From NCBI GenBank assembly GCA_021613335.1, contig JAJTWR010000070.1:62001-126000 (forward strand): a stretch of DNA of 64,000 nucleotides, written 5' to 3'. Shown here one piece after another: positions 21,844 through 41,435 of the stretch (within the stretch, counting starts at the first letter, position 1; the number at the start of each line of letters is the position of its first letter). The stretch comes from Whitmania pigra. Lineage: Eukaryota > Annelida > Clitellata > Hirudinida > Haemopidae. The translations under genes were made by a program, and so were the position numbers. The notes under the pieces are model-generated. The model was not told the DNA's origin, did no database searches, and was given only the letters and a program-made list of their open reading frames with translations.

Positions 21844-21953
21844 ATTATAGGTTATAATGCGCATACAATTTAAGAAAGAATATCTTGTTGATAAGATTTC
21901 TTAAATAACCGCTAATCTTAACATAAATTGATACGCGAAAACCATTATTCTCG

Positions 21954-22955
21954 CTATGGTTTTCTAAAAAAGTTTATTAGTCTTTTTATCTTATGTTTTA
22001 AATTTAAAGGTAGGGCTTGTCTTAAAAAATTTTCTAAACTTCTCCTTCTTTTTTTTGCTTTTTCGTTATTAAGGTAAAAACATTTTAACGACTTAAAGTA
22101 GTGATAATTATTATCCAGAATATCATTTCTGTATTCTTCAAAAAGCGTCTTTAAATCCGGTCTTGTTTCTAGGTTGTATCTATTATGAAAAGAAGCTATA
22201 GCTTCTTTTGAAGGATTAAAGTGGCTGTAATGGAAAAAAACAAGAGGATATTTGTTATTTACCATATAAGTTGAGTTAATTTTGGAAATCATTCTTTCGT
22301 GTAAATTCCAATGAGCAACATTTAGGCCTAAGTTTTTGTATACTAGTATATTATTAAAGTAAATTGGAAATAAATTTGTCCATAATTGGTCTACAAAGTA
22401 ACCTCGCGTTAAATCTAAAATGCATTGTGATTCCAGTCTGCTTGCCCACCAGTCTAATACTTTGTTTGTATTTAGAGATTTTTTTGTGGCTAAAAAACCA
22501 AGATTATACAAGCCGGTTCTGAAAATATGTAATTCCGTAGGAATAAATCCGTCGTTAATTGGTGTTACAATGTGGGGCGACAGAACAATATCGTATGTTT
22601 TTAGTTGCTCAAGTATTGGGTTAAAGTTTCCATAAACTTTAATATCCGGATCTAAGTAGATTATATTTTCAGTGTTGCTAACATGCTTATAAAGCCATTT
22701 AAAATAGAAAGGCTTTACAGAAGTTAATAGCTCTACAATACTGTATCTTTTAACCATTTCATCAAATTTATTGATCCCTAAAGAATCAACCCAAAGTAAG
22801 TTTTGGTTAGGTAGGCCTAAATCTATTTCATTGATGTTTTTGTCTACCAGCCCAATGATAATTTTCCAGTCAGGGTTTGTTTTTTTGATTGAGTGGTATA
22901 AAACTCTGGCTTGGGCAATATAATTAATGGCGCAAAGTGTAAAAACAATATTCAT
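21954..22955 (-). CDS. GT8-like glycosyltransferase (GT-A, DPD motif)
   Basis: A 333-residue protein with a GT-A fold of the GT8 type. It starts MNIVFTLCAINYIAQARVLYHS, of which CAINYIAQARVLYHSI is the typical first helix. The metal-binding motif is YLDPDIKVYG (about residues 95-104). VAHWNLHER and VFFHYSHF near the C terminus match the second half of a family common in surface polysaccharide loci, also represented here by the gene at 37297-38367. The C-terminal 30 residues are strongly basic and may contact the membrane. It overlaps its upstream neighbour by 4 bases. Confidence 0.85.
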   Translation of the reverse strand: MNIVFTLCAINYIAQARVLYHSIKKTNPDWKIIIGLVDKNINEIDLGLPNQNLLWVDSLGINKFDEMVKRYSIVELLTSVKPFYFKWLYKHVSNTENIIYLDPDIKVYGNFNPILEQLKTYDIVLSPHIVTPINDGFIPTELHIFRTGLYNLGFLATKKSLNTNKVLDWWASRLESQCILDLTRGYFVDQLWTNLFPIYFNNILVYKNLGLNVAHWNLHERMISKINSTYMVNNKYPLVFFHYSHFNPSKEAIASFHNRYNLETRPDLKTLFEEYRNDILDNNYHYFKSLKCFYLNNEKAKKRRRSLENFLRQALPLNLKHKIKRLINFFRKP

Positions 22956-23983
22956 GGATTAAATAATTTGTTTTTAATAAAGGACGTATGATTTTCTAAA
23001 GTTTTATTTTTATACCATTCTAAAACACGACAAGATAGCGCATTGCCGTCAAAGTCAAAATTTTCAGGGCTTAAGTATAAATTTTTCATTGTCGATTGTT
23101 TGTCATTCTTGCTAACTTCGTTTATGCCGTAAAGATTAATCACGGCAATTCCGTGAGCTGCATAAGCGGCAAAAATACCCGATTTGTCTATTAATAAATC
23201 TCTATAGTTAATTATTCCCCATTTTGCAGAGGCTAACATATGAGAAATTTCTATATGAGAACGTTGTCCCATTTTTTCAATTTTGATTCCGGCGGGGTAT
23301 TCTATAAATCCGGGCCCTATATCAATTATTTTTTCAATTCGGGTTTGTTGGCAAACTTTGAGTAAACATTCTGAATTATAAACTTTTTGTCTGTTTGGTA
23401 AAGAACCAAAAACTATGGCAAAATTTTGCCTGTTTTGCCAATTTATCGGTTTGGTTATTGGATTGATATTTGAAAAAATTCCAATGTTGTAAACTTTGGA
23501 TGATTTGCTTTTAAGTATCGAAAAAACAACTTCTGTTGAGCAAAATGAATGTTCTGAAAGTTTTAAAATCTGAAACCCTATATACTTTTGTAATGGTTTT
23601 AACCAGAATGACGAATGGTATATTTTGCCCGAGGCGCTAAACTCGTGAAAGAAGCAATATATTTTAAAACCGTGCTTTTTAAGCTTAATCAGTTTAAACA
23701 TTAATTTTAAAGGAATACCTCGCTTATGGTAGCCATACGATACATAGTTAACAAAAATTTTTTGAATAGATAAAGACTTTAAAAGTAATACCAGTTTGCT
23801 TGTTTTTAGGTTTAAACTATAACAATCAAAATCTGTTGAATCACAGTTTTTGTAACTTATAAAAACGGTATGAATTCCGCTTTTTTGTAATTCATTAGCC
23901 AAGTTACAGGCATAATCGCCCACCCCATCAATGCGGGGCGGCAAAGCCGGGACAATTTGAATAATTTTATTTTCTTTCTCCAA
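22952..23983 (-). CDS. Divergent GT-B glycosyltransferase
   Basis: The protein opens with KIIQIVPALPPRIDGVGDYACNLANEL, the core PRIDGVGDYACNLA being a family 4-like acceptor-domain start. The C-terminal half is weakly conserved: SHMLASAKWGIINYRDLLIDKSGIFAAYAAHGIAV replaces the usual EX7E region, so catalytic residues are unclear. The frame is open from 24055, but that part overlaps the acetyltransferase gene by 89 bases and is not family-like. A TTG at 23983, just before the recognisable domain, is my best start. The true start is uncertain. Confidence 0.7.
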   Translation of the reverse strand: MEKENKIIQIVPALPPRIDGVGDYACNLANELQKSGIHTVFISYKNCDSTDFDCYSLNLKTSKLVLLLKSLSIQKIFVNYVSYGYHKRGIPLKLMFKLIKLKKHGFKIYCFFHEFSASGKIYHSSFWLKPLQKYIGFQILKLSEHSFCSTEVVFSILKSKSSKVYNIGIFSNINPITKPINWQNRQNFAIVFGSLPNRQKVYNSECLLKVCQQTRIEKIIDIGPGFIEYPAGIKIEKMGQRSHIEISHMLASAKWGIINYRDLLIDKSGIFAAYAAHGIAVINLYGINEVSKNDKQSTMKNLYLSPENFDFDGNALSCRVLEWYKNKTLENHTSFIKNKLFNP

Positions 23984-24416
23984 TTTTTTTAGCGGGTATG
24001 CCGCCCCAAATTTCGTAAGGCGGAACAGATTGATTAACAATGGCTCCGGCGGCAATTATAGCGCCTTCACCAATATGTGCTCCTTTTAAAATAACTGCGT
24101 TGGCGCCAATCCAAACGTCGCTAGCGATGCTGATGGCTTTGCGGGGGCAATCTTGCTTAACCATTAGTTGATTTTTTGCAGTACCATGATCGTGATCAAT
24201 GAACTTTGAACCGGATGCAATGAGACAATAATCGCCGATTTCGATAAACTCTTGGATATTAAATTCTACATAACTTCCAATAAAAACATGATTACCAATT
24301 TTTATTGACTTACCTCGACTGTAAGGTCCGTCATGTTTAAAATAGCATCCTTTTTCAATAATGCAGTAATTGCCAATCGTTATTTTATGAGGCCAAGTAA
24401 AATTTGGTTTGTTCAT
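23967..24416 (-). CDS. Hexapeptide-repeat acetyltransferase (WbbJ/CatB-like)
   Basis: A 149-residue left-handed beta-helix O-acetyltransferase. Hexapeptide turns appear in IKIGNHVFIGSYVEF and IEIGDYCLIASGSKF. The catalytic-site loop has IDHDHGTAK. The acetyl-CoA coil reads ISIASDVWIGANAVILKGAHIGEGAIIAAGAIV (core DVWIGANAVILKG). The end GGIPAKKIG is typical. It probably acetylates a sugar of the polysaccharide. The start codon is embedded in a 14-base tandem repeat. The first upstream ATG opens a five-codon frame whose TGA overlaps this start. Confidence 0.9.
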   Translation of the reverse strand: MNKPNFTWPHKITIGNYCIIEKGCYFKHDGPYSRGKSIKIGNHVFIGSYVEFNIQEFIEIGDYCLIASGSKFIDHDHGTAKNQLMVKQDCPRKAISIASDVWIGANAVILKGAHIGEGAIIAAGAIVNQSVPPYEIWGGIPAKKIGERK

Positions 24417-24444
24417 CTTGGTTTGTTCATTTTGGTTTGTTTAC
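24403..24444. repeat. Three tandem copies of a 14-base repeat over a start codon
   Basis: Plus-strand units TTTGGTTTGTTCAT (24403-24416), CTTGGTTTGTTCAT (24417-24430) and TTTGGTTTGTTTAC (24431-24444). On the minus strand two of the units supply an ATG: the acetyltransferase start at 24416 and a decoy ATG at 24430 opening a five-codon frame. A 14-base unit is not a multiple of three, so copy-number change would alter the start region. Confidence 0.85.
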
Positions 24445-24536
24445 CAAGTTTTAATCCGATTAGCTGCCAATAACAATTGTTAATTAACCTGCATGCGGTT
24501 AAAAAAAATTCTCGCAACTTATAAAATACGATGTAC

Positions 24537-25490
24537 TTATTCATGTTTTAACAGGGTAATAATGGCGTTGGGTACAAATCTTTTGTAAAGTTTAAACCGT
24601 ATAAACTTGCTGTAAAAATATTTGTTAAAAAAGGCCATTTTAATAAAGAAGCTCAAAATATCGCTTATTTTTTTTATGCCAATGCTTTCTTTAAACTGTA
24701 GCATTCTGGATTGGTTGTTTAAATTAAAGAGTTGTTTAAAGCGAGAATCAAAAGCAGAATGGTTTGTTATAAACTTTGTTAAACCTTTGCATGAATTAAT
24801 CATTCTTAGCGCTTTGTTGTTGGTTTTTGCCTGTTTTACGGTGTAATTGGCGCCGTGCAATCGCCAAACAGATAATGGCTCGGAAAAAAAATAAGTATAT
24901 CCGGCAGACATAGCCATTAATACCAACAGTTCATCGATAAACATATCACAATCCGGAGAGATGTTTGAGGGATTAACGGCCGAAGCTCTACAGGCAAAAC
25001 TAGATCCTCCGCCAAAGAAAATTTGTTTATTATAAAAATAGAATAAAACTTTTAAGCCTTGATTTTTTTTGTCCAGTAAAAATGCCGGAATATTTTCTTT
25101 TCCGTTAACGGTTCCATCTTCATCAACAAAAGCAACCAGATTGGCAATATGCGTAAGTGTTGGGTCGGCTTCAAATAAGTCTACGAATCGTTTTATTTTA
25201 TCGGGATAAAAAAAATCATCGGCGTCCAGATTAAAAATGTATTTACCTTTTGCCAGTTCAAAACCCTTGCGGACGGCTGCGGCTTTACCTAAATTTTTTT
25301 GATAATGATAATGTATGTTTTCAGATAAATAAGGAGCTGCAACTTCTTTGGTTCGGTCTGTTGAACCATCATCAATAATGATGATTTCCCAATGAGGATA
25401 GCTTTGCGCCTTGATTGACCCAATGGCCTCGACAATGAAATTTTGATAATTATAGGCGGGAATGATAATGCTCACCTTTAATTGATTCAT
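24537..25490 (-). CDS. Family 2 glycosyltransferase
   Basis: A 317-residue GT-A enzyme. The nucleotide-binding start is VSIIIPAYNYQNFIVEAI, then IIDDGSTDRT, and the metal-binding DADDFFYP at about residues 90-97. The acceptor-side region has GGGSSFACRAS and VWRLHGANYT. It is intact. It is preceded by the methyltransferase gene with 11 bases between them. The donor sugar cannot be told. Confidence 0.93.
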   Translation of the reverse strand: MNQLKVSIIIPAYNYQNFIVEAIGSIKAQSYPHWEIIIIDDGSTDRTKEVAAPYLSENIHYHYQKNLGKAAAVRKGFELAKGKYIFNLDADDFFYPDKIKRFVDLFEADPTLTHIANLVAFVDEDGTVNGKENIPAFLLDKKNQGLKVLFYFYNKQIFFGGGSSFACRASAVNPSNISPDCDMFIDELLVLMAMSAGYTYFFSEPLSVWRLHGANYTVKQAKTNNKALRMINSCKGLTKFITNHSAFDSRFKQLFNLNNQSRMLQFKESIGIKKISDILSFFIKMAFFNKYFYSKFIRFKLYKRFVPNAIITLLKHE

Positions 25491-25501
25491 AACAAAAAAT
25501 A

Positions 25502-26137
25502 TTATATGGTAGCTAGGGTAAGTTGTGAAGGGAATATTTTTCTAAATTTTCCTAATTTTCTAATCAGTTCTAAGTTATTAAATTTTGTCAGTCCGGTAGG
25601 GCCATAAACAAATTTTTGTATGCTTACTTTATATCCAAGTTCTATTAACAAATTACTTATATTTTGAAAATTCCAGTCGTAAAAATGTCTATGAATATCT
25701 TGCGTATATGCGGGAAAAGGGGTTGCCTTATCTATTGGTAATACAATAGCCAGCATTCCGCCGGGTTTTAATAAAGTTTTAAAAAGCGATAACTGATCGG
25801 TAGGGATTAGATAATGTTCTAACGAATGGTTACATAGAATAATGTCGTAATGATTTTTGGGAATTTGGTCTTCGCTATCAAAAACAAGCTGATTGCTTGA
25901 TTCTTTTATTTTATTTCGGCAGTACTCAGAAATATCATAACAGTCTGCCTGTACAGAAAAGGTAATATGACCAAGGCCGCAACCAAAATCAAGAATTTTT
26001 TTTTGTCGTATATCTATACGATTTCGCTCAAAATAGTTATACATATAAAATATGGAAAGCTTACGGGCATAGTCATTTTTAATATTTAATAGACTGAAAA
26101 CGCTTTCAATGTATTCTTTTTCATAATATTTATCCAT
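25502..26137 (-). CDS. Class I SAM-dependent methyltransferase in polysaccharide locus
   Basis: A 211-residue methyltransferase. Motif I is ILDFGCGLGHITFSV (about residues 48-62). NHYDIILCNHSLEHY carries the motif II region and LKTLLKPGGMLAIVLP motif III. The region after it (TQDIHRHFYDWNFQNISNLL) resembles sugar or lipid-glycan methyltransferases in surface polysaccharide loci. Its own upstream gap is 367 bases, so it may start a sub-operon. Confidence 0.88.
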   Translation of the reverse strand: MDKYYEKEYIESVFSLLNIKNDYARKLSIFYMYNYFERNRIDIRQKKILDFGCGLGHITFSVQADCYDISEYCRNKIKESSNQLVFDSEDQIPKNHYDIILCNHSLEHYLIPTDQLSLFKTLLKPGGMLAIVLPIDKATPFPAYTQDIHRHFYDWNFQNISNLLIELGYKVSIQKFVYGPTGLTKFNNLELIRKLGKFRKIFPSQLTLATI

Positions 26138-26504
26138 GCGTTCAAATTTTGGAAAGTAAACGATAAAAATATTGATTTTATTTTAAAGGGAATTTGTTTT
26201 TGCTGTTTAAAATTCTGTTTTTATGGCGCTGATACAATTTAAACAATAGGCCTGCTTTTAATAAAATTAATTAGGGATAATTTTAGGGGCGTGTTCGTTT
26301 AGGTAAGGGTATGGGGTTGTTGTTTAAGTGTGCTGCTATATTTTTGTATTTCTCTGATAAATGGGATGATGGTTAATCAATCCAATACTTATAGGGTTTG
26401 CAATTTATCAAGTAGTTTCTTCAGGGATTTAAAAACCTCAGTCTTTTACCTTCCGCATTTACCGTATGCGGGGCGGTTATAGGCTCTGCAATATCGATAA
26501 TAAT
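26138..26504. other. Intergenic gap inside the polysaccharide locus
   Basis: A 367-base stretch without a usable ORF in a locus whose other genes nearly overlap. It contains a palindrome CCGCATTTACCGTATGCGG (26454-26472), without a T run on either side. I see no recognisable protein remnant. The gap may mark a junction where a gene was lost or where a module was inserted. Confidence 0.5.
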
Positions 26505-27392
26505 TTAATCCTGTAAATCGTAATCATTTAAGATATACTTATTGCCGAGGTGTCTTATGGTAAAATAATCAAGATGTGATAAGGCACAATTCATTGGTTC
26601 AAAATTTTCGAATAAGCAGAAAGTAGACGCAGATTCTAAAACTCCAATACTAACCACTTTTCGGCGCCATTTATATCCTGAGTTTATCCAAATCTTCATT
26701 TGCGGTTTTGATAAACAGTAAAATGCAGCGTACGGGTTTTCATATTTACAATATTTTACGCCGCTAACCGATTTAAAAGAAAAAGATTCAAGGCGTTTGT
26801 AATTGGTTTCAATTTGGTCTCTTTTTGTAATTTGATCAAGATAATGCTTTATGCCTTCAAAAAATTCAAAACGGTGCGGAAATAACAAATATTTATTATT
26901 CGGGCTAACCGCGTTAAATTCCATTATTTTATGTAAAAAGGAACTATCGTTTAGAATAATATCATCTTCTAAAGACAAAAAAAAGTCTCCTTGCCGATAG
27001 TTTTCTTTAAAAATATCGTAAGCGCCGTATCCTACATACATGGGATCAGGTTCTTCAGAATAAACAACTTTTAATTGCTTTTTTAGGTATTGGGGCAATT
27101 CTTCTACCAGCGAGTAACCTTTTTTTGTAAGAATGTTTATTTCATATTTATATCCGTAAAGGGTAATTAATAAATGCTCTAAACAATTGAATAAACGATC
27201 GTATTTTTCGGGATTTTTCAGGTCGGTAACAACATGGGTAATAACCGCAATAATGGTTTGGTTGTTTTTGGGTATTTCAAAATTTTTCCCAAATATGCGA
27301 AAAAAGAAATATCGTTTTTGAAAACATTTGATCTCTAAATAAGAGATCAAATGTTTAAACAGAGCGCATGTATGAGCGATATATTTCATCAT
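26505..27392 (-). CDS. Putative GT-A glycosyltransferase
   Basis: A 295-residue protein of uncertain family. QTIIAVITHVVTDLKNPEKYDRL begins a GT-A-like Rossmann fold, and DFFLSLEDDIILNDSSFLHKI carries a probable metal-binding EDD (about residues 148-150). The C-terminal part has NPYAAFYCLSKPQMKIW, which fits the acceptor domain of small family 2-like enzymes. Its ATG overlaps the reconstructed stop of the upstream glycosyltransferase (ATGA), so translation was coupled before that gene was broken. Confidence 0.65.
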   Translation of the reverse strand: MMKYIAHTCALFKHLISYLEIKCFQKRYFFFRIFGKNFEIPKNNQTIIAVITHVVTDLKNPEKYDRLFNCLEHLLITLYGYKYEINILTKKGYSLVEELPQYLKKQLKVVYSEEPDPMYVGYGAYDIFKENYRQGDFFLSLEDDIILNDSSFLHKIMEFNAVSPNNKYLLFPHRFEFFEGIKHYLDQITKRDQIETNYKRLESFSFKSVSGVKYCKYENPYAAFYCLSKPQMKIWINSGYKWRRKVVSIGVLESASTFCLFENFEPMNCALSHLDYFTIRHLGNKYILNDYDLQD

Positions 27393-28226
27393 CTTTTAAA
27401 TAATAAAATGAAACCAAATTTTATTTGCATAAATCCTTCTGCTATTCTTGGCAACGCTCCTTTATATTGGTACCGGCGTCCTTTTAAAATAACCATTATT
27501 AATCTTTTAACCCCTATTTTAAAATAAAATAAAGAAGATAATTCATTTTTTTTTCCGAATGCTTGGCTCTAAAATAAAGGGCCGATTTTAATCGCTCGTT
27601 AGTTATTTGGATAATATTTTTTGGCAAACGAGAAGGGTGTATTACCAAAGCATCCGGAAGAAATAAAATTTTAATTTGTTTTTTTTTAAACGCCAATGAA
27701 AATCAACATCTTCCATGGCGGCGTATGGAAAATTTTCATCAAATCCGTCTTGAGAAAAAAAAAGTTTTTTGTTAATCATAAAATTACAAGACCAAAGAAA
27801 GCCGCCCGTTTCGTTGATGGGCGATTCTTCAATCATGTTGAGCGGTTTTCTGTCTGCGATAGTTTTACCTTCAAAAACCCTTATTCCCGGATTATATTTT
27901 ATAGCATTTTGATAAGTTTTAATCAATGTTTCGTTTGGCAAAATATCATCATCCAAAAAAATCAACCAATTTCCTTGCGCTTTTTTTGCTCCATGGTTAC
28001 GGTTTGCAGCAGGGCCTTTTTGTGGCCCTTTGTAATATTTTACAATTGGAAATTGTTTTTTTAGCAAAGCGCTCATATCTGTATCACTGTCATCAGAAAC
28101 AATAACCTCCGGGATTGCCGTGCTTGTATTTTGCAGTTGGGCAAGCAAAGCAGACAGGCAGCGTTGTAACATGTCAATTCTGTTACAAGTTGGGATTATT
28201 ATGCTGATAGAACTATCCATTTCCAT
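27389..28226 (-). pseudogene. Family 2 glycosyltransferase broken at two A9 tracts
   Basis: The N-terminal part (194 residues) is a normal GT2: ISIIIPTCNRIDMLQRCLSALL, then VSDDSDTD, the metal site FLDDDILPN and AMEDVDFHWRLKK. The frame is then lost at nine A on the minus strand (27679-27687). With ten, the reading continues into QIKILFLPDALVIHPSRLPK. A second A9 run (27546-27554) breaks the frame again; one extra A there leads to LSSLFYFKIGVKRL and on to a TGA at 27389. That stop overlaps the next gene's ATG in the usual ATGA form, which supports the reconstruction. The intact gene would have about 279 residues. It may be a phase-variable gene, a recent pseudogene or a sequencing artefact. 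Confidence 0.8.
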
Positions 28227-28268
28227 TATTTATTTTTATGCATTTAATCGGTTGCTAAAATTAAATGC

Positions 28269-29248
28269 TTAGTTAAGGGTTTTTATATTGATATTTCGTT
28301 TTTTTGCGATTTTTAAAGATATCGAACGCCATTTCGATTTTATTTTCCAGAGGGGTGTTTTAATAATAACCATTAGCACGCCAATCCAAAACTTGACAGA
28401 GAAAAAATAGCTTATATAATTTGGCTTTGTTTTAAAACTTCCTCTACGAGTAATATAATACGGATATGGGAGAACAGCGCCAAGATAAAAGCAATAAGGG
28501 TATTTAAAAATAAGCAAATGTACGAGCAGATATTCTTTCCCTTGATATTCAATCAGATGATTATCTGCTTTTACTATGCCGTTTATATTAGGGTCTAACA
28601 AGCTGTTTTCAAATAAGATTTTTATCTGGTTGTTTTTTAGAATAACATGCGAAATACTTTCGATAGGGGTGGTAAACTCTAAAACAGGCTTCCCTTTCTG
28701 ATCTATTTCGTAAAATGTATTACCAACCAGAACGCCTAATTCATCAAAACCTAAATATCCCCGTTCTTGCATAACTTTGTGCCAGTCTTTGCTTTTTTCA
28801 TATAAAGTATTACACAGGGCGTTATTACGCATCAAAAAAAACGCTCCGTGCATTCTTCGTTCTATGCAGCTGTAAACGTCAATCCGATCAAGCAGGTCGT
28901 CTGAAATAAATTTGCTGAAATTTCCAACAATCACATCCGGATCTATGTTTCCCCAAAAGTCATAGTTTTTAAGTTCTTGCGAAAATATTATCCCCCAAGC
29001 GGGTTTGTAATCGCAAAGTTTATAGGGATGTCTTATTTCGCATTGCCGGCCAAGCGTTGCGGATATGCGTTGTACAAAAGCTTCAAAAGAGCTTTTTTTA
29101 CAAATACGTTTTTTGGCACATTAAGTTTTTCAATATTGGTAATTATCAACAGATTAAAAGGCTGGTTAGCTACAGATTGAAGGAAATAATCAAAATATGC
29201 GGGTTTTTTGCCGAAAAATGGTAACAGAAGTAAAATTTTATTTTTCAT
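28269..29248 (-). pseudogene. DUF6625-type glycosyltransferase, array copy 1, frameshifted
   Basis: The copy farthest from the operon promoter. It reads like its sisters up to NVFV (residue 49). A base is then missing: TACAAAAAAGC of copy 2 is TAAAAAAAGC here (T7 at 29093-29099 on the plus strand). The frame closes at 29033. The rest is intact in the other frame down to 28269 and carries its own variants, for example LGVLVGNTFYEIDQKG in the variable loop and a diverged tail ending NINIKTLN. The family is described under copy 2. The long intact 3' part argues that the break is recent or reversible. Confidence 0.85.
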
Positions 29249-29332
29249 AAAAGGTATTAAAAAATGGAGTTATAATAAGGCCCGCGTTTGTTCGGATTAT
29301 GCATTTAATCGGGTGCTAAAATAAATGCTTAG

Positions 29333-30310
29333 TTAAGGGTTTTTTATATTGATATTTCGTTTTTTTGCGATTTTTAAAGATATCGAACGCCATTTCGATT
29401 TTATTTTATGGGGAGATGTTTTAATAATAAACATTAGCGCGGCAAACCAAAAGTTGACAGAGAAAAAATAGCTTATATAATTTGGCTTTGTTTTAAAACT
29501 TCCTCTACAAGTAATATAATACGGATATGGGAGAACAGCGCCAAGATAAAAGTAATAAGAGTATTTAAAAAAAAGCAAATGCAACAGCAAATACTCTTTT
29601 TCGTTATATTCGATCAGATGATTATCTGCCTTCACTATGCAGTTTTTAATTTCTATTATATAATATTCTAAAATACTATTTTCAAATAAGATTTTTACCG
29701 GGTTGTTTTTTAGAATAACATGCGAAAAACTTTCGATAGGGGTGGTAATCTCTAAAACTGATTTCCCCCCGTCTATTTTATCAAAAAAACGGCCGCCTAA
29801 TTCATCAAAACCTAAATATCCCCGTTCTTGCATAACTTTGTGCCAGTCTTTGCTTTTTTGATATAAAGCATTACACAGGGCGTTATTACGCATCAAAAAA
29901 AACGCTCCGTGCATTCTTCGTTCTATGCAGCTGTAAACGTCAATCCGATCAAGCAGGTCGTCTGAAATAAATTTGCTGAAATTTCCAACAATCACATCCG
30001 GATCTATGTTTCCCCAAAAGTCATAGTTTTTAAGTTCTTGCGAAAATATTATCCCCCAAGCGGGTTTGTAATCGCAAAGTTTATAGGGATGTCTTATTTC
30101 GCATTGCCGGCCAAGCGTTGCGGATATGCGTTGCACAAAAGCTTCAAAAGAGCTTTTTTGTACAAATACGTTTTTTGGCACATTAAGTTTTTCAATATTG
30201 GTAATTATCAACAGATTAAAAGGCTGGTTAGCTACAGATTGAAGGAAATAATCAAAATATGCGGGTTTTTTGCCGAAAAACGGTAACAGAAGTAAAATTT
30301 TATTTTTCAT
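29333..30310 (-). CDS. DUF6625-type glycosyltransferase, array copy 2
   Basis: A 325-residue intact copy. It starts MKNKILLLLPFFGKKPAYFD, the typical opening of DUF6625 proteins, which are GT-A-like enzymes of bacterial surface polysaccharide loci. YKPAWGIIFSQEL precedes the metal-site region YDFWGNIDPDVIVGNF (about residues 95-110). RMHGAFFLMRNN follows. The variable loop here reads LGGRFFDKIDGGKS and the second loop has a six-residue insertion (SILEYYIIEIKN). The C-terminal region GAVLPYPYYITCRGSFKTKP is shared by all copies. Function as a glycosyltransferase is inferred. Copy-to-copy loop variation could change acceptor or donor choice. Confidence 0.85.
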   Translation of the reverse strand: MKNKILLLLPFFGKKPAYFDYFLQSVANQPFNLLIITNIEKLNVPKNVFVQKSSFEAFVQRISATLGRQCEIRHPYKLCDYKPAWGIIFSQELKNYDFWGNIDPDVIVGNFSKFISDDLLDRIDVYSCIERRMHGAFFLMRNNALCNALYQKSKDWHKVMQERGYLGFDELGGRFFDKIDGGKSVLEITTPIESFSHVILKNNPVKILFENSILEYYIIEIKNCIVKADNHLIEYNEKEYLLLHLLFFKYSYYFYLGAVLPYPYYITCRGSFKTKPNYISYFFSVNFWFAALMFIIKTSPHKIKSKWRSISLKIAKKRNINIKNP

Positions 30311-30394
30311 AAAAGGTATTAAAAAATGGAGCTATAATAAGGCCCGCGTTTGTTCGGATTATGCATTTAATCGGTTGCTAAAATAAATGCTTAG

Positions 30395-31381
30395 TTAAGG
30401 GTTTTTTATATTGATATTTCGTTTTTTTGCGATTTTTAAAGATATCGAACGCCATTTCAATTTTATTTTATGGGGAGGTATTTTAATAATTATTAGCGCG
30501 GCCAACCAAAAGTTGACAGAAAAAAAATAGCTTATATAATTTGGTTTTGTTTTAAAACTTCCCCTACGAGTAATATAATACGGATATGGGAGAACAGCTC
30601 CAAGATAAAAGTAATAATAGTATTTAAAACAAACCAAATGCAACAGCATGTATTCTTTCCCTTGATATTCAATCAGATGATTATCTGCTTTCACTATGCC
30701 GTTTATAGGTTCTAAAATACTATTTTCAAATAAGATTTTTACCTGGTTGTTTTTTAGAATAACATGCGAAAAACTTTCGATAGGGGTGCTAAACTCTAAA
30801 ACAGACCTCCCTTTCTGATCTATTTCGTTAAATATATTAATAATACCCATATTATTCCAAGGCATGCCTATTTCATCAAAACCTAAATATTTCTGTTCTT
30901 GCATAACTTTGTGCCAGTCTTTGCTTTTTTGATATAAAGCGTTACACAGGGCGTTATTACGCGCTAAAAAAAACGCCCCGTGTATTCTTCGTTCTCTGCA
31001 GCTGTAAAGGTCAATCCGATCAAGCAGATCGTCAGAAATAAATTTGCTGAAATTTCCAACAATCACATCCGGATCTATGTTTCCCCAAAAGTCATAGTTT
31101 TTAAGTTCTTGCGAAAATATTATCCCCCAAGCGGGTTTGTAATCGCAAAGTTTATGAGGATGTCTTATTTCGCATTGCCGGCCAAGCGTTGCGGATATGC
31201 GTTGCACAAAAGCTTCAAAAGAGCTTTTTTGTACAAATACGTTTTTTGGCACATTAAGTTTTTCAATATCGGTAATTATCAACAGATTAAAAGGCTGGTT
31301 AGCTACAGATTGAAGGAAATAATCAAAATATGCGGGTTTTTTGCCGAAAAACGGTAACAGAAGTAAAATTTTATTTTTCAT
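30395..31381 (-). CDS. DUF6625-type glycosyltransferase, array copy 3
   Basis: A 328-residue intact copy, the longest of the five. It differs from copies 2 and 5 by the central loop IGMPWNNMGIINIFNEIDQK and by RERRIHGAFFLARNN in place of RMHGAFFLMRNN. The N-terminal third is the same as in other copies except for single changes (ITDIEK, HPHKL). It appears identical in nucleotide sequence to copy 4 over the full unit and both spacers. The only difference I find is one A at 32158-32160, where copy 3 has four and copy 4 three. The duplication is therefore very recent. Confidence 0.87.
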   Translation of the reverse strand: MKNKILLLLPFFGKKPAYFDYFLQSVANQPFNLLIITDIEKLNVPKNVFVQKSSFEAFVQRISATLGRQCEIRHPHKLCDYKPAWGIIFSQELKNYDFWGNIDPDVIVGNFSKFISDDLLDRIDLYSCRERRIHGAFFLARNNALCNALYQKSKDWHKVMQEQKYLGFDEIGMPWNNMGIINIFNEIDQKGRSVLEFSTPIESFSHVILKNNQVKILFENSILEPINGIVKADNHLIEYQGKEYMLLHLVCFKYYYYFYLGAVLPYPYYITRRGSFKTKPNYISYFFSVNFWLAALIIIKIPPHKIKLKWRSISLKIAKKRNINIKNP

Positions 31382-31465
31382 AAAAGGTATTAAAAAATGG
31401 AGCTATAATAAGGCCCGCGTTTGTTCGGATTATGCATTTAATCGGTTGCTAAAATAAATGCTTAG

Positions 31466-32451
31466 TTAAGGGTTTTTTATATTGATATTTCGTTTTTTTG
31501 CGATTTTTAAAGATATCGAACGCCATTTCAATTTTATTTTATGGGGAGGTATTTTAATAATTATTAGCGCGGCCAACCAAAAGTTGACAGAAAAAAAATA
31601 GCTTATATAATTTGGTTTTGTTTTAAAACTTCCCCTACGAGTAATATAATACGGATATGGGAGAACAGCTCCAAGATAAAAGTAATAATAGTATTTAAAA
31701 CAAACCAAATGCAACAGCATGTATTCTTTCCCTTGATATTCAATCAGATGATTATCTGCTTTCACTATGCCGTTTATAGGTTCTAAAATACTATTTTCAA
31801 ATAAGATTTTTACCTGGTTGTTTTTTAGAATAACATGCGAAAAACTTTCGATAGGGGTGCTAAACTCTAAAACAGACCTCCCTTTCTGATCTATTTCGTT
31901 AAATATATTAATAATACCCATATTATTCCAAGGCATGCCTATTTCATCAAAACCTAAATATTTCTGTTCTTGCATAACTTTGTGCCAGTCTTTGCTTTTT
32001 TGATATAAAGCGTTACACAGGGCGTTATTACGCGCTAAAAAAAACGCCCCGTGTATTCTTCGTTCTCTGCAGCTGTAAAGGTCAATCCGATCAAGCAGAT
32101 CGTCAGAAATAAATTTGCTGAAATTTCCAACAATCACATCCGGATCTATGTTTCCCCAAAGTCATAGTTTTTAAGTTCTTGCGAAAATATTATCCCCCAA
32201 GCGGGTTTGTAATCGCAAAGTTTATGAGGATGTCTTATTTCGCATTGCCGGCCAAGCGTTGCGGATATGCGTTGCACAAAAGCTTCAAAAGAGCTTTTTT
32301 GTACAAATACGTTTTTTGGCACATTAAGTTTTTCAATATCGGTAATTATCAACAGATTAAAAGGCTGGTTAGCTACAGATTGAAGGAAATAATCAAAATA
32401 TGCGGGTTTTTTGCCGAAAAACGGTAACAGAAGTAAAATTTTATTTTTCAT
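31466..32451 (-). pseudogene. DUF6625-type glycosyltransferase, array copy 4, frameshifted
   Basis: An almost exact duplicate of copy 3. The N-terminal frame stops at 32146 after KNYDFGET because one base is lost in the CTTTTGG (here CTTTGG) that encodes the YDFWGNIDPD metal-site motif, at 32158-32160 on the plus strand. The remaining 223 codons are intact in the next frame. As it stands the product lacks the catalytic region. The single-base difference between two otherwise identical 1-kb repeats could equally be an assembly or polishing error. Confidence 0.85.
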
Positions 32452-32535
32452 AAAAGGTATTAAAAAATGGAGCTATAATAAGGCTCGCGTTTGTTCGGAT
32501 TATGCATTTAATCGGTTGCTAAAATAAATGCTTAG

Positions 32536-33498
32536 TTAAGGGTTTTTTATATTGATATTTCGTTTTTTTGCGATTTTTAAAGATATCGAACGCCATTTCA
32601 ATTTTATTTTATGGGGAGATCTTTTAATAATAAACATTAGCGCGGCAAACCAAAAGTTGACAGAGAAAAAATAGCTTATATAATTTGGCTTTGTTTTAAA
32701 ACTCCCTTTATAAGTAATATAATACGGATATGGGAGAACAGCGCCAAGATAAAAGAAATAAAACCATTTAAAAATAAGCAAATGCAACAGCATATATTCT
32801 TTCCCTTGATGTTCAATCAGATGATTATCTGCCTTCACTATGCCGTTTATAGATTCTAAAATACTATTTTCAAATAAGATTTTTACCTGATTGTTTTTTA
32901 GAATAACATACGAAAAACTTTCGATAGGGGTGGTAATCTCTAAAACTGATTTCCCCCCGTCTATTTCATTAAAAAAACAGCCGCCTAATTCATCAAAACC
33001 TAAAAATTTCTGTTCTTGCATAACTTTGTGCCAGTCTTTGCTTTTTTCATATAAAGTATTACACAGGGCGTTATTACGCATCAAAAAAAACGCTCCGTGC
33101 ATTCTTCGTTCTCTGCAGCTGTAAACGTCAATCCGATCAAGCAGATCGTCTGAAATAAATTTGCTGAAATTTCCAACAATCACATCCGGATCTATGTTTC
33201 CCCAAAAGTCATAGTTTTTAAGTTCTTGCGAAAATATTATCCCCCAAGTTGGTTTGTAATCGCAAAGTTTATAGGGATGTCTTATTTCGCATTGCCGGCC
33301 AAGCGTTGCGGATATGCGTTGTACAAAAGCTTCAAAAGAGCTTTTTTGTACAAATACGTTTTTTGGCACATTAAGTTTTTCAATATTGGTAATTATCAAC
33401 AGATTAAAAGGCTGGTTAGCTACAGATTGAAGAAGATAATCAAAATATGCGGGTTTTTTGCCGAAAAACGGTAACAGAAGTAAAATTTTATTTTTCAT
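32536..33498 (-). CDS. DUF6625-type glycosyltransferase, array copy 5
   Basis: A 320-residue intact copy nearest the operon promoter, probably the array's first translated gene. Its variable loop (LGGCFFNEIDGGKS) resembles copy 2, while its second loop (NSILESINGIVKAD) resembles copy 3. RERRMHGAFFLMRNN combines features of both groups. This pattern is expected if copies exchange segments by gene conversion. Copy-specific changes include YLLQSVANQ, YKPTWGII and the aromatic stretch FKWFYFFYLG. It begins 11 bases inside the end of a truncated FkbM gene, so the array was probably joined to that gene by recombination. Confidence 0.86.
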   Translation of the reverse strand: MKNKILLLLPFFGKKPAYFDYLLQSVANQPFNLLIITNIEKLNVPKNVFVQKSSFEAFVQRISATLGRQCEIRHPYKLCDYKPTWGIIFSQELKNYDFWGNIDPDVIVGNFSKFISDDLLDRIDVYSCRERRMHGAFFLMRNNALCNTLYEKSKDWHKVMQEQKFLGFDELGGCFFNEIDGGKSVLEITTPIESFSYVILKNNQVKILFENSILESINGIVKADNHLIEHQGKEYMLLHLLIFKWFYFFYLGAVLPYPYYITYKGSFKTKPNYISYFFSVNFWFAALMFIIKRSPHKIKLKWRSISLKIAKKRNINIKNP

Positions 33499-33868
33499 TT
33501 AAAAGTAGTTTATTTAAATTTACAGCTACTGTCAGTTCTCCTGAGCGGTAAATAAAAAAGCCATGACCTGTTAAAATGGAGTTAATAATATTTCTATTGC
33601 CATATTCGTCATGAATTTCGAGAGCTAAAACTTTTATTTTGTTTAACCATGATAAATTATTTGAAGGGTTTAATACGTCAAACTCGCCGCCTTCAATATC
33701 TATTTTTAAAAAATCGATAAAAGAGTTGTTGAATTGAAGAATTATTCTATTGTTTTCTTCGGCATAAAAAACTTTATTTCGCCATGCAATGCGGTTAAAC
33801 AAACCTCCTACTAAATATTTCAGTTTTTTTGTTTGGTTTAAAGATTTACTATAAGTAATTAAATTCAT
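33488..33868 (-). CDS. N-terminally truncated FkbM-family methyltransferase
   Basis: 126 residues containing only the second half of an FkbM methyltransferase: FIDFLKIDIEGGEFDVL (the family's KIDIEGxE motif) and VLALEIHDEYGNRNIINSIL. The SAM-binding motif I that should lie about 60-80 residues earlier is absent. Upstream DNA is taken by the end of the GT2 gene, with which the ATG overlaps by 20 bases. It is thus a remnant or an unusually short variant, most likely inactive as a methyltransferase alone. Its stop lies within array copy 5. Confidence 0.65.
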   Translation of the reverse strand: MNLITYSKSLNQTKKLKYLVGGLFNRIAWRNKVFYAEENNRIILQFNNSFIDFLKIDIEGGEFDVLNPSNNLSWLNKIKVLALEIHDEYGNRNIINSILTGHGFFIYRSGELTVAVNLNKLLLNEK

Positions 33869-34765
33869 TTTTTAATATTTTTTTAATGATTCCTAAAAAG
33901 CGAGTATCTTTCCATACAATTATAGGTAATCTAATTGCTAAGGTAATTATACTTTTACGAGTATAGTTTATTTTGCCTGCCCAAATTTTTGTTAAAACAC
34001 GGTGTACGAGCAAAAGTTTTAAAAGTTTTTTTTGTTCTTTAATATCAAGTTCCGGTAATTTAGAGTATAAAACTTGAATGGATTCATGAATGGGTTTTAA
34101 AGGTTGAGAACCGGTTTTGGTGGTATTGTTGTATCTATAAAAAGTAAGGGGTTTATATAGTATTGAAAAATATTGGGGCCTGCTTTTATAATTCTATAAT
34201 ACCATTCCATATCTAAGCAATAGTGCAATGATTCGTCTAGCTTTTTTAAATCCTTTTGTTCTAAAAATGTTTTTCTGATAAAAACAGACTGCGATGGAAT
34301 TATGTACTCTATTTTGTAGAAAAACTTTAATAATCTGGGCGCTTTAAAATATTTGGGTTGTCTTATGTTAACATCAATGGCATTTTGAGGGCTTTCTCCC
34401 ACTTTTACAGGTCCGTGCACAAAGTCTGCATACTTAGCGTTTGTAGAAAATATTTCTTTAAAAGCATGTGGATAATAAACGTCGTCAGAATTTATAAAAG
34501 CCACAAACTCGCCGGAGGCTTTTTCAAGCCCTTTATTAATTGCATGGGCTTGGCCACGATCTTTTTCAGAAATCCAGTAGCTGATTTTGTTCTCATATTT
34601 TTTGATAATGTTTACCGAGTTATCGGTACTTCCTCCGTCAATTACAAGCAACTCAACATGAGGATAATCTTGGGTAATAATAGAAAGCAAGGTTTCTTCT
34701 AAATACTGTTCTTGATTATAAGATGGAACAATAATGGAGAGTTTTGGAAGTTTTTCTTTAGCCAT
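33849..34765 (-). pseudogene. Family 2 glycosyltransferase with C-terminal frameshift
   Basis: The first 205 residues are a normal GT2: LSIIVPSYNQEQYLEETL, VIDGGSTDNS, the metal site INSDDVYYP, HAINKGLEKASGEF. A single base is missing near 34145-34165 (the run of four C on the minus strand at 34148-34151 is a candidate). The present frame ends at 34097 after TTIPPKPVLNL. In the next frame the protein continues as PLTFYRYNNTTKTGSQPLKP and further to a stop at 33849. LTFYRYNNTTKTGS matches the usual FYRYHxxSKT motif of this subfamily, so the reconstruction is firm. It overlaps genes on both sides once restored. Confidence 0.8.
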
Positions 34766-35826
34766 GATATAATTTTTTTTTACTTAGAAAAGGTAACTCA
34801 ACTATGCGATAGGTTACTATGGAAATGATGACAGAAACTGCCCAAATTAAAATAAACTGATTTAATGAGTTTATTGCCGGGTTTTGGGAGATAACAAAAT
34901 ATTTCAAAACGTAATAACGTATGGGGTAATGCCAGAGGTAAATACCATAAGATGGATAGTTTTACCATTATTTTTGATGAGAGAAATTTATTGATGATAC
35001 CGTGAGGATGTAAAAGGATAAACAAAGTAAATACAGCCCAAGCTATATTATGCATTACATAGGTAAACCGAGTTACATAAATGTTAATTAATTTATAAAA
35101 TCTTAAATACATACACGCGAATACGATAATTAAAGCTATTATTTGAATGACTGTAAACGCCATATCTGGTTTTTTAATTTTAAGATTGAATTTTTCGTAT
35201 AATAAGGCCGCTGCAATGCCTAATAGAAAACAATCAGCGTTTGCAAGGAAAGAAACATAAAGTATATCTTCTGCTTCAGAAGGAAACTGGTAATACACGT
35301 ACGCCCTATAAGCATACGCCAAGCCAAAAAAACAGGCAACAACTGTGCTAAGCAGTTTAAAGTGTTGTTTTTGAGTAAGTTTGCACAAAAAATGCATTAA
35401 TAGAGGCAATATCAAATAAAAATGCATTTCCATAAATAAAGACCAAGTAACCGGGTTAAGCCTAATATCTTTTATAAAAGATACAAACAGTAAAATTTTA
35501 CTAAGCGAATAGGAAACGCTAAAAACTCGATCATAACCAATTAAATATAGCGCCAAAGAAGAGAATAAAAATAGTGGATATATTCTTAATATTCGTTTTT
35601 TATAAAAGTTTGTAATAAAGTTGAGTTTATTTTGTGTTTGATTGTAGGCTAATAAAAATTGTCGGCTTAATAACAGGCTGCTTAAAAAAAAGAATATTTG
35701 AACGCCGAGATAACCCGTACCTGTAACAGCGTTATAGCCCGGTATCCAACTAATGTACATTCCGATATGGAAATTTACCACAAGTATTAATGCAATGGCT
35801 CGGATGCCGTCTAGTTCTTTAATCAT
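34758..35826 (-). pseudogene. Acyltransferase-3 (OafA-like) membrane protein with C-terminal frameshift
   Basis: An integral membrane O-acyltransferase with about ten spans. It starts MIKELDGIRAIALILVVNFH. The catalytic-type Arg/His region is seen as LDGIRAIALILVVNFHIG, followed by GVQIFFFLSSLLLS and the WSLFMEMHFYLILPLL motif. One base is missing between 34948 and 34968. The open frame then runs through an unrelated 50-residue tail to 34798, whereas the next frame gives SYGIYLWHYPIRYY, the conserved last helix motif (SYxxYLxHxP), and ends at 34758. The restored gene overlaps the GT2 start by 8 bases. The present product lacks the last two spans. Confidence 0.8.
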
Positions 35827-35862
35827 TTTTTAAAATAAGCGTTTGTAGACGTTGAAATAAGT

Positions 35863-36951
35863 TTACGTAAAACGGTTGATCATATCGGCTATGGTCATAA
35901 TTTCCTGTTGGGTGTTAGCGGTGGAAATTGGCAAACTTAGGGTTGTTTGATGAATTTTTTGGCAAATAGGGAATAACCCTTTTAAGCGCATCCGATATGC
36001 AGTTTGATTATGCGGCGCAACCGGGTAATGAATTTCGGTTTTTATCCTGTTTTTTAAAAGGAAATTTTTTAATTCATCTCGCCTCTCTGTGCGGATATTA
36101 TAAATATGGAATACCTCAAAAGCATTTTCTACCGCAGTAGGCAATATTATATTGGGGTTAACAATTTGCGTGTTATAAATTGTCGCTAATTTTCTTTTAT
36201 GCGCTGTAATTGTTTCCAAATTTTTTAACTTAATTCGTAAAAAAGCGGCTTGTAATTCATCTAAACGAGAGTTAATGCCGATATAAGCATTATGATATTT
36301 TTGATGAGAGCCATAGTTTCGCAAAGCGCGCAGTTTTATTGCCATTTCCTTGTCGCTGGTGGTAACGGCCCCTGCGTCGCCTAAGGCGCCTAAATTTTTA
36401 GTCGGATAAAAACTAAAAGCTCCGAATTTGCCCCAAGTTCCAACTTTTTTACTCAAATAAGAAGCTCCGTGGGCTTGCGCGCAATCTTCGATTACCTCGA
36501 GATGATGACTTTGGGCAATTGCCATTATTTGATCCATTTTACAGGGTTTACCATATAAATGAACCGCCATTATAGCTTTTGTTTGATGAGTTATGCGCGC
36601 TTCAATTAACGCGGGGTCGATATTGTACGTTGATAGCTCAGGCTCTACTAAAATTGGCACTAAACCGGCATTTACAATGCTTAATATAGTAGCAATATAA
36701 GTATTAGACGGTACTATTACTTCTGATTCAGGCGGTAAATCGAGCGATAGAAGAGAAAGATATAAAGCGTCTAATCCATTGGCCATACCAATGCAATATT
36801 TGCTGCCGATAAAAGTTGCAAATTCTTCTTCAAATCGCATCACCTCTTCTCCCAAAATATACCATCCCCTGCGCAAAAAATTTTCAAAAACTTTTCGATA
36901 TGCGGCTTCGTAAGGAGCGTTTACAAGTTTTAAATTTTCGTATTCGATCAT
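35863..36951 (-). CDS. DegT/DnrJ/EryC1-type sugar aminotransferase (FdtB/QdtB-like)
   Basis: PLP enzyme that aminates a keto sugar nucleotide. Lys185 in [18 protein letters not shown] is the Schiff-base lysine. [13 protein letters not shown] supplies the PLP-binding Asp, and [16 protein letters not shown] is a family signature. Length is 362 residues. It follows the ketoisomerase FdtA with a 4-base overlap. This pair makes dTDP-3-amino-3,6-dideoxy-hexose (Fuc3N or Qui3N). The N-acetyltransferase FdtC/QdtC is not found intact, but a broken hexapeptide acetyltransferase lies at 40840-41430. Confidence 0.92.
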
Positions 36952-37313
36952 AAGTAAGGTTGTTGGATATAGTCGTCGGCATCAAAGTATTCAGAGGCTA
37001 ATACCATTAATATAGCGTCGGCCGAGAATAGATCCATGGTGTGCCAATCTTCCGGTTCTATAATCAAACACTTGTGGGGCGCATCTAGGTAAAAAAAACT
37101 TTCTTGATGTCCGTTGTTGTTAAATATTCTGCAATTACCTTTGATACAAATAGCCGCCTGTCTTGTTTTTTTGTGCCTGTGGCCCCCTCGTGCAGAATCG
37201 TTTACCCCGTATATATAGAAAATACGTTTAATGTTAAAGGGTATCACTTTTTCAATAACCGTTAAATTGCCTCTCGAATCTGTAAATGTTTTTAAATCAA
37301 TTAATTTTGCCAT
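36948..37313 (-). CDS. Sugar 3,4-ketoisomerase (FdtA/QdtA, WxcM-like cupin)
   Basis: A 121-residue cupin that converts dTDP-4-keto-6-deoxyglucose to the 3-keto isomer, the substrate of the following aminotransferase. [12 protein letters not shown] opens the fold. The active-site histidines lie in [12 protein letters not shown] (His45, His47), and [22 protein letters not shown] forms the last strands. It is in an operon with the aminotransferase. Whether the product has the galacto (FdtA) or gluco (QdtA) configuration cannot be read with confidence. RmlA and RmlB, which make the precursor, are not in the window. Confidence 0.92.
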
Positions 37314-38367
37314 TTTTTAGCTTACAAAGTTCTTCGTCTGATTTTAAAAACGTTAAATCGAAAAAATATATTTTCCTAAAACAAAGCAAAGCGCCGCTAC
37401 CTATTTTCCACATACTTCGTAAGGCGTTAGACGATTTTTTAAAAGGATGCCGATTCATGGATAAATCATTATGGTTTTGAACCATTTTATTGCTTTTTAG
37501 TATAGCTTTAATGTATTTTTCATATAGTTTTTTTATAGCAAATGTATTTTTAACATCATAAAACAAAAAATTATGTTTTACAATTGGGGGAGAAATACGA
37601 AGGGCGTGGAAATGATAAAAAATTAACCTTTCATCGCCGACAAGAATTGTTCCGTTTTTATATTTTAATGGCGTTTCAGCAATGTTCCATGGAGCTCTAC
37701 AGCATCTTTTATCCGCTAAGGGATGTATATTCATAAAGTTTTGTTCCCAAGAGTCCAGATATTTCTGATCTGCAAAAAAACCGGTTTCTTCGTCATACCT
37801 ATCTTCGCACCAATTAAAACATTTTGTTCGCCAATCGTTTAAAACGGCAAGGCCATTATCGTTATTCGGAAATGATTGGAAACTAACATTGTATACGCCA
37901 AACTTGGTAAGACCTTTTAAAGTACTGCTAAAATCATGCGGACTAATAATGATGGCGTCTTTAGGATACCGATCAAAAATTTTTTCGGGGCTGTCAAAAA
38001 AATAAATGTCTGAATCTAAAGTGGTTATTCTTTCGCACTGAGGGTAATTTTTTAACAGATACAAAGGCCAGTAAGGGCTTAAAGTAAAATAATACTCTAT
38101 TATGCTGCGGTTAGTCTTTGCTTGGCTAAGCTCCGGAAAAAACGCTTCAATATCTTCTGTTTTAACAGGAAAAACGCCAAAAGCAGGTTGTTGTTGAAAG
38201 TATTGATAGGTTTGGTTGTCCAAACATAATACAAATAACAGGTAGTCATCTTTTAAATATTCGCGAAGAGAATTATTTAAACAAAGACCTCTGCTGAGGT
38301 AATTAAAATCAAAAAGTGTAGCGAAATGTTTCAAAATTTTTTCTTGCTCAAGATAAAGCCTTTCCAT
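37297..38367 (-). CDS. GT8-like glycosyltransferase (GT-A, DSD motif)
   Basis: A GT-A protein of 356 residues when started at the ATG at 38367 (MERLYLEQEKILKHFATLFD). The frame is open to 38397. FATLFDFNYLSRGLCLNNSL is the family's first helix, with the metal-binding motif TTLDSDIYFFDSPE. YNVSFQSFPNNDNG and ADQKYLDSWEQNF lie in the middle, and LIFYHFHAL near the end. It resembles the gene at 21954-22955. The start overlaps the methyltransferase end by 37 bases and its end overlaps fdtA by 17. Confidence 0.85.
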   Translation of the reverse strand: MERLYLEQEKILKHFATLFDFNYLSRGLCLNNSLREYLKDDYLLFVLCLDNQTYQYFQQQPAFGVFPVKTEDIEAFFPELSQAKTNRSIIEYYFTLSPYWPLYLLKNYPQCERITTLDSDIYFFDSPEKIFDRYPKDAIIISPHDFSSTLKGLTKFGVYNVSFQSFPNNDNGLAVLNDWRTKCFNWCEDRYDEETGFFADQKYLDSWEQNFMNIHPLADKRCCRAPWNIAETPLKYKNGTILVGDERLIFYHFHALRISPPIVKHNFLFYDVKNTFAIKKLYEKYIKAILKSNKMVQNHNDLSMNRHPFKKSSNALRSMWKIGSGALLCFRKIYFFDLTFLKSDEELCKLKNGKIN

Positions 38368-39143
38368 TGCATCAATTTTTTGTCTTCGCTTAGGCAATTA
38401 GGATCGGCGAAACTCTGGAAATCGGCAATCAGGTCGTATTTTTTTGAAAATATATTTAATAAATGCGTTTCATTAAAAAACCAACAGGGGTATGACGCTA
38501 CGTAAATTGATTCAGGCACATGCTGCACGGTAATTCTGGACTCATCGTTTATAAAACTTGTTCGGTCTATAATAATGTGATTAAAATCGTAAGTTTGTAT
38601 TTCTTCCAATAGTTCAAAAGGCTTTTCTAAGTATTGAAGCACGCTACTAAGTAATAAAACATCAGGCTTTTTTACAGCCATACAACTGCCAATATCCCCA
38701 AAGAAATGAAGTTGTTCATTTGCAAAATGTTGTTTACCGCATTCAACAAAATGCCGCTGTTCAACAATGCTCCAATTTATCGTTTTTAAGTTGGAAATAA
38801 ACGCGTGATTTTGATAAAATGAACTGCCAAGCGAGCCGCCGTAATCTAAAATATTTAATTCGTTATTATTATCTAACGCCGCTTTTTGAAGCCCCGCAAG
38901 TAATGGCCAGCTATATTCTATTTTTTCAAATAAAACGCTGTCTCTTTCGTAAGGTACAATACCGTTTTTAACTTTTAAAAGCGCCGAAAGGCATTTATTT
39001 AGTATTACTTGGTTATCATAACCGCTTGATTTTTCTGCAGCCTGGCTCCAAGACGAGAAATTTCCGTTCCATAGAATGGTTTCTTGTACGATTTTCTTTT
39101 TATTGGAAACCCCGAATATAAAACGCTTAATTAGTTTTTTCAA
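38331..39143 (-). CDS. Methyltransferase, TIGR04325 family
   Basis: A 270-residue putative SAM methyltransferase of the TIGR04325 type found in Leptospira and Bacteroidota surface polysaccharide loci. The N-terminal part has WSQAAEKSSGYDNQVIL. The SAM site is LNILDYGGSLGSSFYQN (about residues 94-110). VEQRHFVECGKQHF, then DVLLLSSVLQYLEKPFELL follows. IDRTSFINDESRITVQHVP is a family hallmark. It overlaps neighbours on both sides. The substrate is unknown. Confidence 0.88.
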   Translation of the reverse strand: MKKLIKRFIFGVSNKKKIVQETILWNGNFSSWSQAAEKSSGYDNQVILNKCLSALLKVKNGIVPYERDSVLFEKIEYSWPLLAGLQKAALDNNNELNILDYGGSLGSSFYQNHAFISNLKTINWSIVEQRHFVECGKQHFANEQLHFFGDIGSCMAVKKPDVLLLSSVLQYLEKPFELLEEIQTYDFNHIIIDRTSFINDESRITVQHVPESIYVASYPCWFFNETHLLNIFSKKYDLIADFQSFADPNCLSEDKKLMQWKGFILSKKKF

Positions 39144-40030: not shown

Positions 40031-40080
40031 TAGATTTAAAATTTTGCAAAAATAATTCGATTTTTTAGATGAGGGTTAAA

Positions 40081-40835: not shown

Positions 40836-40839
40836 ATGT

Positions 40840-41430: not shown

Positions 41431-41435
41431 CTGAA

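Follow-up and report, generated by a model that had tools for sequence, protein, structure and literature searches.

Tandem glycosyltransferase genes that keep a constant N-terminal part and vary downstream of it have been described in Helicobacter pylori. According to PMC6892558, HP1105, a beta-1,3-N-acetylglucosamine transferase, occurs in five alleles that are distinguished by their C-terminal half next to a highly conserved N-part, is often present as two tandem copies and forms hybrids very rarely, and the JHP0562/JHP0563 pair is built of n and c modules, of which 177 strains showed at least 16 combinations. Here we analyzed an array of five genes of the family DUF6625 (PF20330) in a 64,000-nt stretch of DNA, called the window below (contig JAJTWR010000070.1 of the Whitmania pigra assembly GCA_021613335.1, positions 62,001 to 126,000). 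The window is part of a 435,010-bp bacterial contig (C38) within a 178-Mb, 381-contig assembly of eukaryote size, in which it represents a cobiont or contaminant. We consider it roughly 60% probable that the array was grown and homogenized by ordinary recombination between neighboring copies, with selection keeping two old variants of one loop. No paper in the literature searched mentions DUF6625, and the text of PMC9950754 on tandem spreading genes of Flavobacterium collinsii, as far as excerpted, names no DUF. The initial annotation of this DNA, made from its sequence, knew of no described system of this kind for DUF6625, which overstates the novelty in view of the published H. pylori tandem glycosyltransferases with their constant N-part and typed, rearranging C-part (PMC6892558).

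The array comprises five head-to-tail DUF6625 units on the minus strand with a start-to-start spacing of 1,046-1,071 bp, the units starting at 33498, 32451, 31381, 30310 and 29248 (copy 5, c5, to copy 1, c1). The features are as follows, with loop coordinates derived (for c5 from codon numbers):

32536..33498, minus strand: c5, intact DUF6625 open reading frame (ORF) of 320 aa with loop-1 type A, furthest upstream
32926..32988, minus strand: loop 1 of c5, type A, codons 171-191
32452..32535, minus strand: spacer c5-c4, 84 bp
31466..32451, minus strand: c4, the c3 sequence except for one indel, split into ORFs 32146-32451 and 31466-32137, loop-1 type B
31853..31942, minus strand: loop 1 of c4, type B
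31382..31465, minus strand: spacer c4-c3, 84 bp
30395..31381, minus strand: c3, intact, 328 aa, loop-1 type B, PF20330 E-value 1.2e-50
30782..30871, minus strand: loop 1 of c3, type B, codons 171-200
30311..30394, minus strand: spacer c3-c2, 84 bp
29333..30310, minus strand: c2, intact, 325 aa, loop-1 type A, 5-codon insert in loop 2, PF20330 E-value 1.1e-47
29738..29800, minus strand: loop 1 of c2, type A, codons 171-191
29249..29332, minus strand: spacer c2-c1, 84 bp
28269..29248, minus strand: c1, frameshift near codon 51, loop-1 type B
28665..28739, minus strand: loop 1 of c1, type B
28236..28268, minus strand: tail 3' of c1, resembling the first part of the spacers and followed by unique sequence, the downstream edge of the repeat

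As the initial annotation had stated, the N-terminal part and the spacers are nearly identical, the six pairs of distinct units being 1-4 nt apart over alignment columns 1-224, with 97.8-100% likeness of the spacers over an 89-nt query, and the loop motifs it quoted for the copies (GGxFFxxIDGGKS, NSILExINGIV and EIDQKG) read as given. Loops 1 and 2 vary in length by multiples of 3, and a third variable segment is present (c3 codons about 236-260). Units c3 and c4 are the same gene apart from one indel in 1,071 bp, and every other pair of units shows 58-128 differing alignment columns across its full length, a count that for the c1 pairs includes 33-36 columns in the last block, beyond the end of the repeat. 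As assembled, c1 and c4 carry frameshifts, and the intact ORFs are those of c2, c3 and c5. An assembly artefact, i.e., a wrong copy number or a false c3/c4 duplication, could be suspected from a 435-kb bacterial contig in a 178-Mb assembly and from frameshifts suggesting an imperfect consensus. It is nonetheless highly improbable as an explanation of the array, since pairs other than c3/c4 differ in so many columns, the edges are clean (the repeat likeness ends at the ATG upstream of c5 and shortly past the c1 stop) and an artefact could at most alter the copy number.

Recombination was analyzed on the four distinct units, whose alignment has 107 polymorphic columns free of gaps. Along 24 two-by-two sites we counted 7 switches, compared to 13.7 expected (p=0.0015). 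Twelve maximum-contrast scans, which share data and hence depend on one another, placed the breakpoint immediately before loop 1 in two cases (p<=0.0002), between columns 451 and 522 in three (two with p=0.004, one with p=0.03) and near column 750 in one (p=0.045), and among six run tests the c1-c2 pair (columns 225-441; p<=0.0002) survived correction. Between loop types, synonymous differences per site amount to 0.31-0.38 in loop 1 versus 0.015-0.08 in the N-half, about 4-25 fold, a contrast that is absent within loop types. Protein constraint alone is insufficient to explain the difference between loop and N-half, because synonymous sites contrast too. Mosaicism of the array is supported by the breakpoint before loop 1 together with the synonymous contrast; this agrees with the initial annotation, which had ascribed the mosaics to gene conversion or unequal crossing-over and proposed to map the breakpoints copy by copy. 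The same pattern without any recombination would require that the units arose by plain tandem duplication, with the N-half held by constraint and the loops evolving fast or under positive selection. The N-half of the family is indeed generally more conserved (at N identities of 0.3-0.8, pairs have an average N-C identity difference of 0.09-0.13), but the synonymous contrast and the breakpoint scans speak against this explanation, as do 17 out of 17 other-genome pairs of equal N identity (mostly Chryseobacterium and Flavobacterium, and not independent of each other), which drop by at most 0.04, and we judge it quite unlikely.

Loop 1 is of type A in c2 and c5 and of type B in c1, c3 and c4, and both types recur in close relatives. 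The window IlvC (2130-3611) is 98% identical to the IlvC of two close relatives, which are 1 of 493 residues apart and differ from it by 9 and 10 residues. Of the 120 listed IlvC matches, the 117 that are neither these two nor the protein of the window itself reach at most 85%, the best named ones being Niabella metagenome-assembled genomes and Pedobacter, which would place the window lineage loosely near Sphingobacteriaceae. Two DUF6625 homologues, P0001 (77%) and P0002 (72%), we assign to the genomes of these two relatives; each relative is represented by one protein, compared at the protein level. The N-parts of P0001 and P0002 match each other at 154 of 166 positions and the intact window copies at 139-142 of 166. 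The two backbones group together, yet P0001 carries loop type A and P0002 type B. A short loop is found in 97 of the 117 scorable rows, and the B motif in P0002 alone among 120 listed homologues. Both clusters, P0001 and P0002, have two member sequences each, which is compatible with more than one copy in the relatives. Most simply, type B arose once before the split of the relatives, and both types were retained while the backbones were homogenized within each lineage; we infer from this a long retention of the loop types. Acquisition of types A and B by horizontal transfer would replace such retention, and the content of the locus does seem to vary, with an acyltransferase gene (34798-35826) lacking a sister-contig match among the 40 listed (7,999 best candidates scored); given that type B is missing from the remaining 119 listed homologues and that two imports would be required, we regard transfer as unlikely.

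The initial annotation saw a checkerboard of shuffled loops, which holds for loop 1 against its flanks and fails for loop 2. It had noted that copy 5 shares loop 2 with copy 3, and this likeness is real. However, the c5/c3 form of loop 2 is also present in both P0001 and P0002 and is therefore a retained ancestral state, so that shared loop 2 was ruled out as evidence of shuffling. In the third variable segment, c5 has a tryptophan (site 264) in common with P0002 that is absent from P0001, a single site.

The glycosyltransferase nature of DUF6625, assumed in the initial annotation, is in line with the predicted structure. The PF20330 profile (cut-off 27) scores 163.5 bits for c2 and 173.3 bits for c3, and the model (predicted local distance difference test, pLDDT, 93) adopts a GT-A fold nearest to GT6 (ABO-type) enzymes. 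The 50 entries listed by structure search are glycosyltransferases (GT6, UGGT, a PBCV-1 enzyme), which we take to belong to the GT-A class; model residues 259-328 are barely covered by these fold matches. The DxD motif (D103xD105) is invariant in 123 rows, and so is E170 of FDE170, which loop 1 follows directly. This Glu is presumably the counterpart of the GT6 catalytic Glu motif, making E170 the predicted catalytic Glu in the modeled structure. We do not assign DUF6625 to the GT6 family itself (ABO GTA/GTB, alpha-1,3-galactosyltransferase, BoGT6a), to which it shows 10-17% identity, no profile match and low TM-scores; PF03414 (GT6) is not among the families shown (25 of 29) for 123 DUF6625 members, and its search returned zero matches in 198 genomes and likewise in 14 controls.

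Recombination between neighbors together with selection on loop 1 would combine these observations as follows. Unequal crossing-over between neighboring units would set the copy number, as in the c3/c4 duplication, gene conversion would homogenize the backbones, and selection would keep apart the two old variants of the loop behind the predicted catalytic Glu. The polysaccharide that the locus exports is probably what these enzymes add sugars to, with the loops tuning the choice of acceptor (or donor). The copies are probably transcribed together, as suggested by their common strand and by the terminator-like sites in 27.5-35 kb (three), which are all on the plus strand. The effect of the loops on specificity, the selection and the joint transcription are what we infer from these features. 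A perfect TTGACA-16-TATAAT match lies on the plus strand at 28393, 29454, 30513, 31584 and 32657, antisense in the 3' part of each copy; this promoter-like match probably arose by chance and was multiplied with the units.

Several points weigh against this reading. There are just four distinct units and 24 two-by-two sites, six of the 12 maximum-contrast scans gave p>0.1 and five of the six run tests failed correction. Besides the backbone and loop-1 splits, ten further amino-acid split patterns occur, with 1-2 sites each, some of which conflict, and the loop-1 incongruence with the relatives amounts to two substitutions plus indels. The ratio of nonsynonymous to synonymous rates (dN/dS), whose comparison between loops and N-half the initial annotation had proposed, is not clearly above 1 in the loops, and a claim of positive selection from dN/dS was dropped for this reason. 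Concerning the enzyme, Foldseek gives low TM-scores (0.31-0.39 by query length, root-mean-square deviation 6.6-9.5), and a sequence-level match to a known glycosyltransferase family was not found. Finally, the frameshifts of c1 and c4 fit decay as well as sequencing error, and nearby genes look interrupted or short (27642-28226, 33488-33868, 40081-40533 with 40581-40835, and 34798-35826), for which sequencing error or decay may be responsible. Neutral concerted evolution, or a decaying dosage array whose loop differences are without function, would accommodate the frameshifted copies, the interrupted neighbors and the identity of c3 and c4. Loop length changes in multiples of 3, three intact ORFs and the presence of both A and B in close relatives are less expected under neutrality or decay, which we consider a somewhat unlikely explanation.

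The surroundings of the array fit its assignment to an exopolysaccharide setting by the initial annotation, as the gene content is that of an exported polysaccharide:

13450..47504, minus strand: polysaccharide locus around the array, from profile matches of ORFs

The locus encodes a WcaF-like acetyltransferase, an XrtY-associated glycosyltransferase, a weak Wzy_C protein and other glycosyltransferases and methyltransferases, and on the export side ABC exporter genes, a NusG-like protein, a Wzc-like protein and a polysaccharide export protein. ORF 13973-15469 combines a GT2 domain (residues 22-139) with exosortase Y (316-482), and a literature search for exosortase Y returned only papers unrelated by title. 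In the window, leuC, ilvC, ilvB, ilvD and recN match their profiles nearly end to end, unlike the polysaccharide genes that look interrupted or short. A PADLOC scan of 6 window ORFs gave no match.

Mosaic copies in a polysaccharide locus could also point to programmed antigenic or phase variation, in which the array would switch the surface polysaccharide within a strain; both loop types occur among the proteins of the two relatives, and the frameshifted c1 and c4 could act as donors. The initial annotation had likewise drawn a parallel to cassette antigenic variation. This parallel does not hold for five full-length units in a single orientation: a search of the assembly gave 7 matches, all of them fragments of the same five units, so that no donor copy, and in particular no truncated one, was found outside the array anywhere in the assembly searched, and the cassette model was rejected. 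Furthermore, three intact ORFs lie side by side, and no inverted-repeat arm of at least 20 nt was found within 5 kb of the array (14-nt exact seed; short repeats could escape). Two inverted-repeat pairs were found in 13-48 kb (30 nt, 77%; 21 nt, 86%), the 21-nt pair being 24.7 kb apart and enclosing the array. The window has 68 listed ORFs of at least 100 aa, and among the 44 distinct ones scanned with Pfam or NCBIfam there was no site-specific recombinase, with the RecN repair protein present. A dedicated switch is not supported, because neither donors elsewhere nor, with the 14-nt seed, an inverted-repeat arm near the array were found, and programmed variation appears very unlikely.

Loci with several DUF6625 genes are also found in other genomes. 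Among the best 80 of 449 genome loci, a selection that gives no family-wide rate, nine have more than one DUF6625 gene within the fetched stretch, and a tenth (L069) has one gene in two ORFs. Full-length copies at the same locus are 35-65% identical. Fourteen same-locus pairs outside the window were compared, with a minimum of 100 aligned residues in the N-part and 40 in the C-part, and Flavobacterium sp. LC2016-23 (L077) showed the strongest contrast (N 0.80 versus C 0.37). L059 (F. collinsii; 0.61/0.29), L043 (0.40/0.13) and L060 (0.53/0.31) also exceed the average N-C difference, and the other ten show less or none. The L077 locus (1-6336) contains three DUF6625 genes, two of which show no difference in the first 60 aligned codons and are about 91% identical to codon 100 and about 60% thereafter, to be read with caution, as the first copy is cut by the contig end; the third is interrupted and resembles the first downstream. 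This break lies near the DxD motif and not at loop 1, and L077 may represent a sharper mosaic than the window array. In F. collinsii, identity falls from about 80% to about 58% near codon 100, and the four copies of Puia dinghuensis (L017) have no such break. Judged from these alignments, recombination that preserves the N-part is not unique to the window, although it is not clearly visible in the majority of same-locus pairs.

Between genomes, pairs among the Flavobacterium loci L059, L063, L064, L072, L074 and L084 have N identities of 0.71-0.75 and C identities of about 0.4, as if two C-half types had spread over related N-halves. Six IMG/VR contigs (L135-L140) encode distant DUF6625 relatives (31-36%), and some phages or prophage regions may carry the enzyme. 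In genome samples drawn from larger, partly overlapping groups, DUF6625 matched in 11 of 394 genomes of the Hydrotalea family, in 28 of 399 of the Pedobacter psychrotolerans family (26 of them single-copy) and, at E<=1e-50, in 3 of 400 of the Pedobacter psychrotolerans order; nearly all matching genomes of the two families have a single copy. A broader and rather speculative idea regards DUF6625 as a modular family: in Bacteroidota, the N-module would repeatedly stay constant while acceptor-side loops or C-halves are exchanged between neighboring copies. The array would then hold a standing stock of surface-sugar specificities that persists across species and is mixed anew by recombination.

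If the loop types differ in specificity, the array would offer near-isogenic natural chimeras as a ready experiment on sugar choice by a predicted ABO-like fold, and a Bacteroidota counterpart to the glycosyltransferase shuffling of H. pylori; if true, this would give DUF6625 a first proposed function. Should the types share their specificity, the array would be a clean case of concerted evolution. Compared to gonococcal pilE, as described in PMC6959607, the array has mosaic tracts among homologous copies in common, whereas pilE conversion uses truncated donors and the window has three intact neighboring ORFs and no donors outside the array. The H. pylori loci, as described in PMC6892558, differ by having at most two full-size copies, compared to five units in the window, and belong to another family and phylum; moreover, the strongest contrast in the window is in one loop and not in the whole C-half, and strain variation has been surveyed in H. 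pylori (177 strains, JHP locus), whereas the window array is known from one assembly. Nevertheless, like HP1105 and JHP0562/JHP0563 in that account, the array consists of tandem glycosyltransferase paralogues at a surface-glycan locus with a conserved N-part, a typed C-part and some frameshifts, and the rearranged copies there, sometimes N/C hybrids, have their parallel in the recombinant copies of the window.

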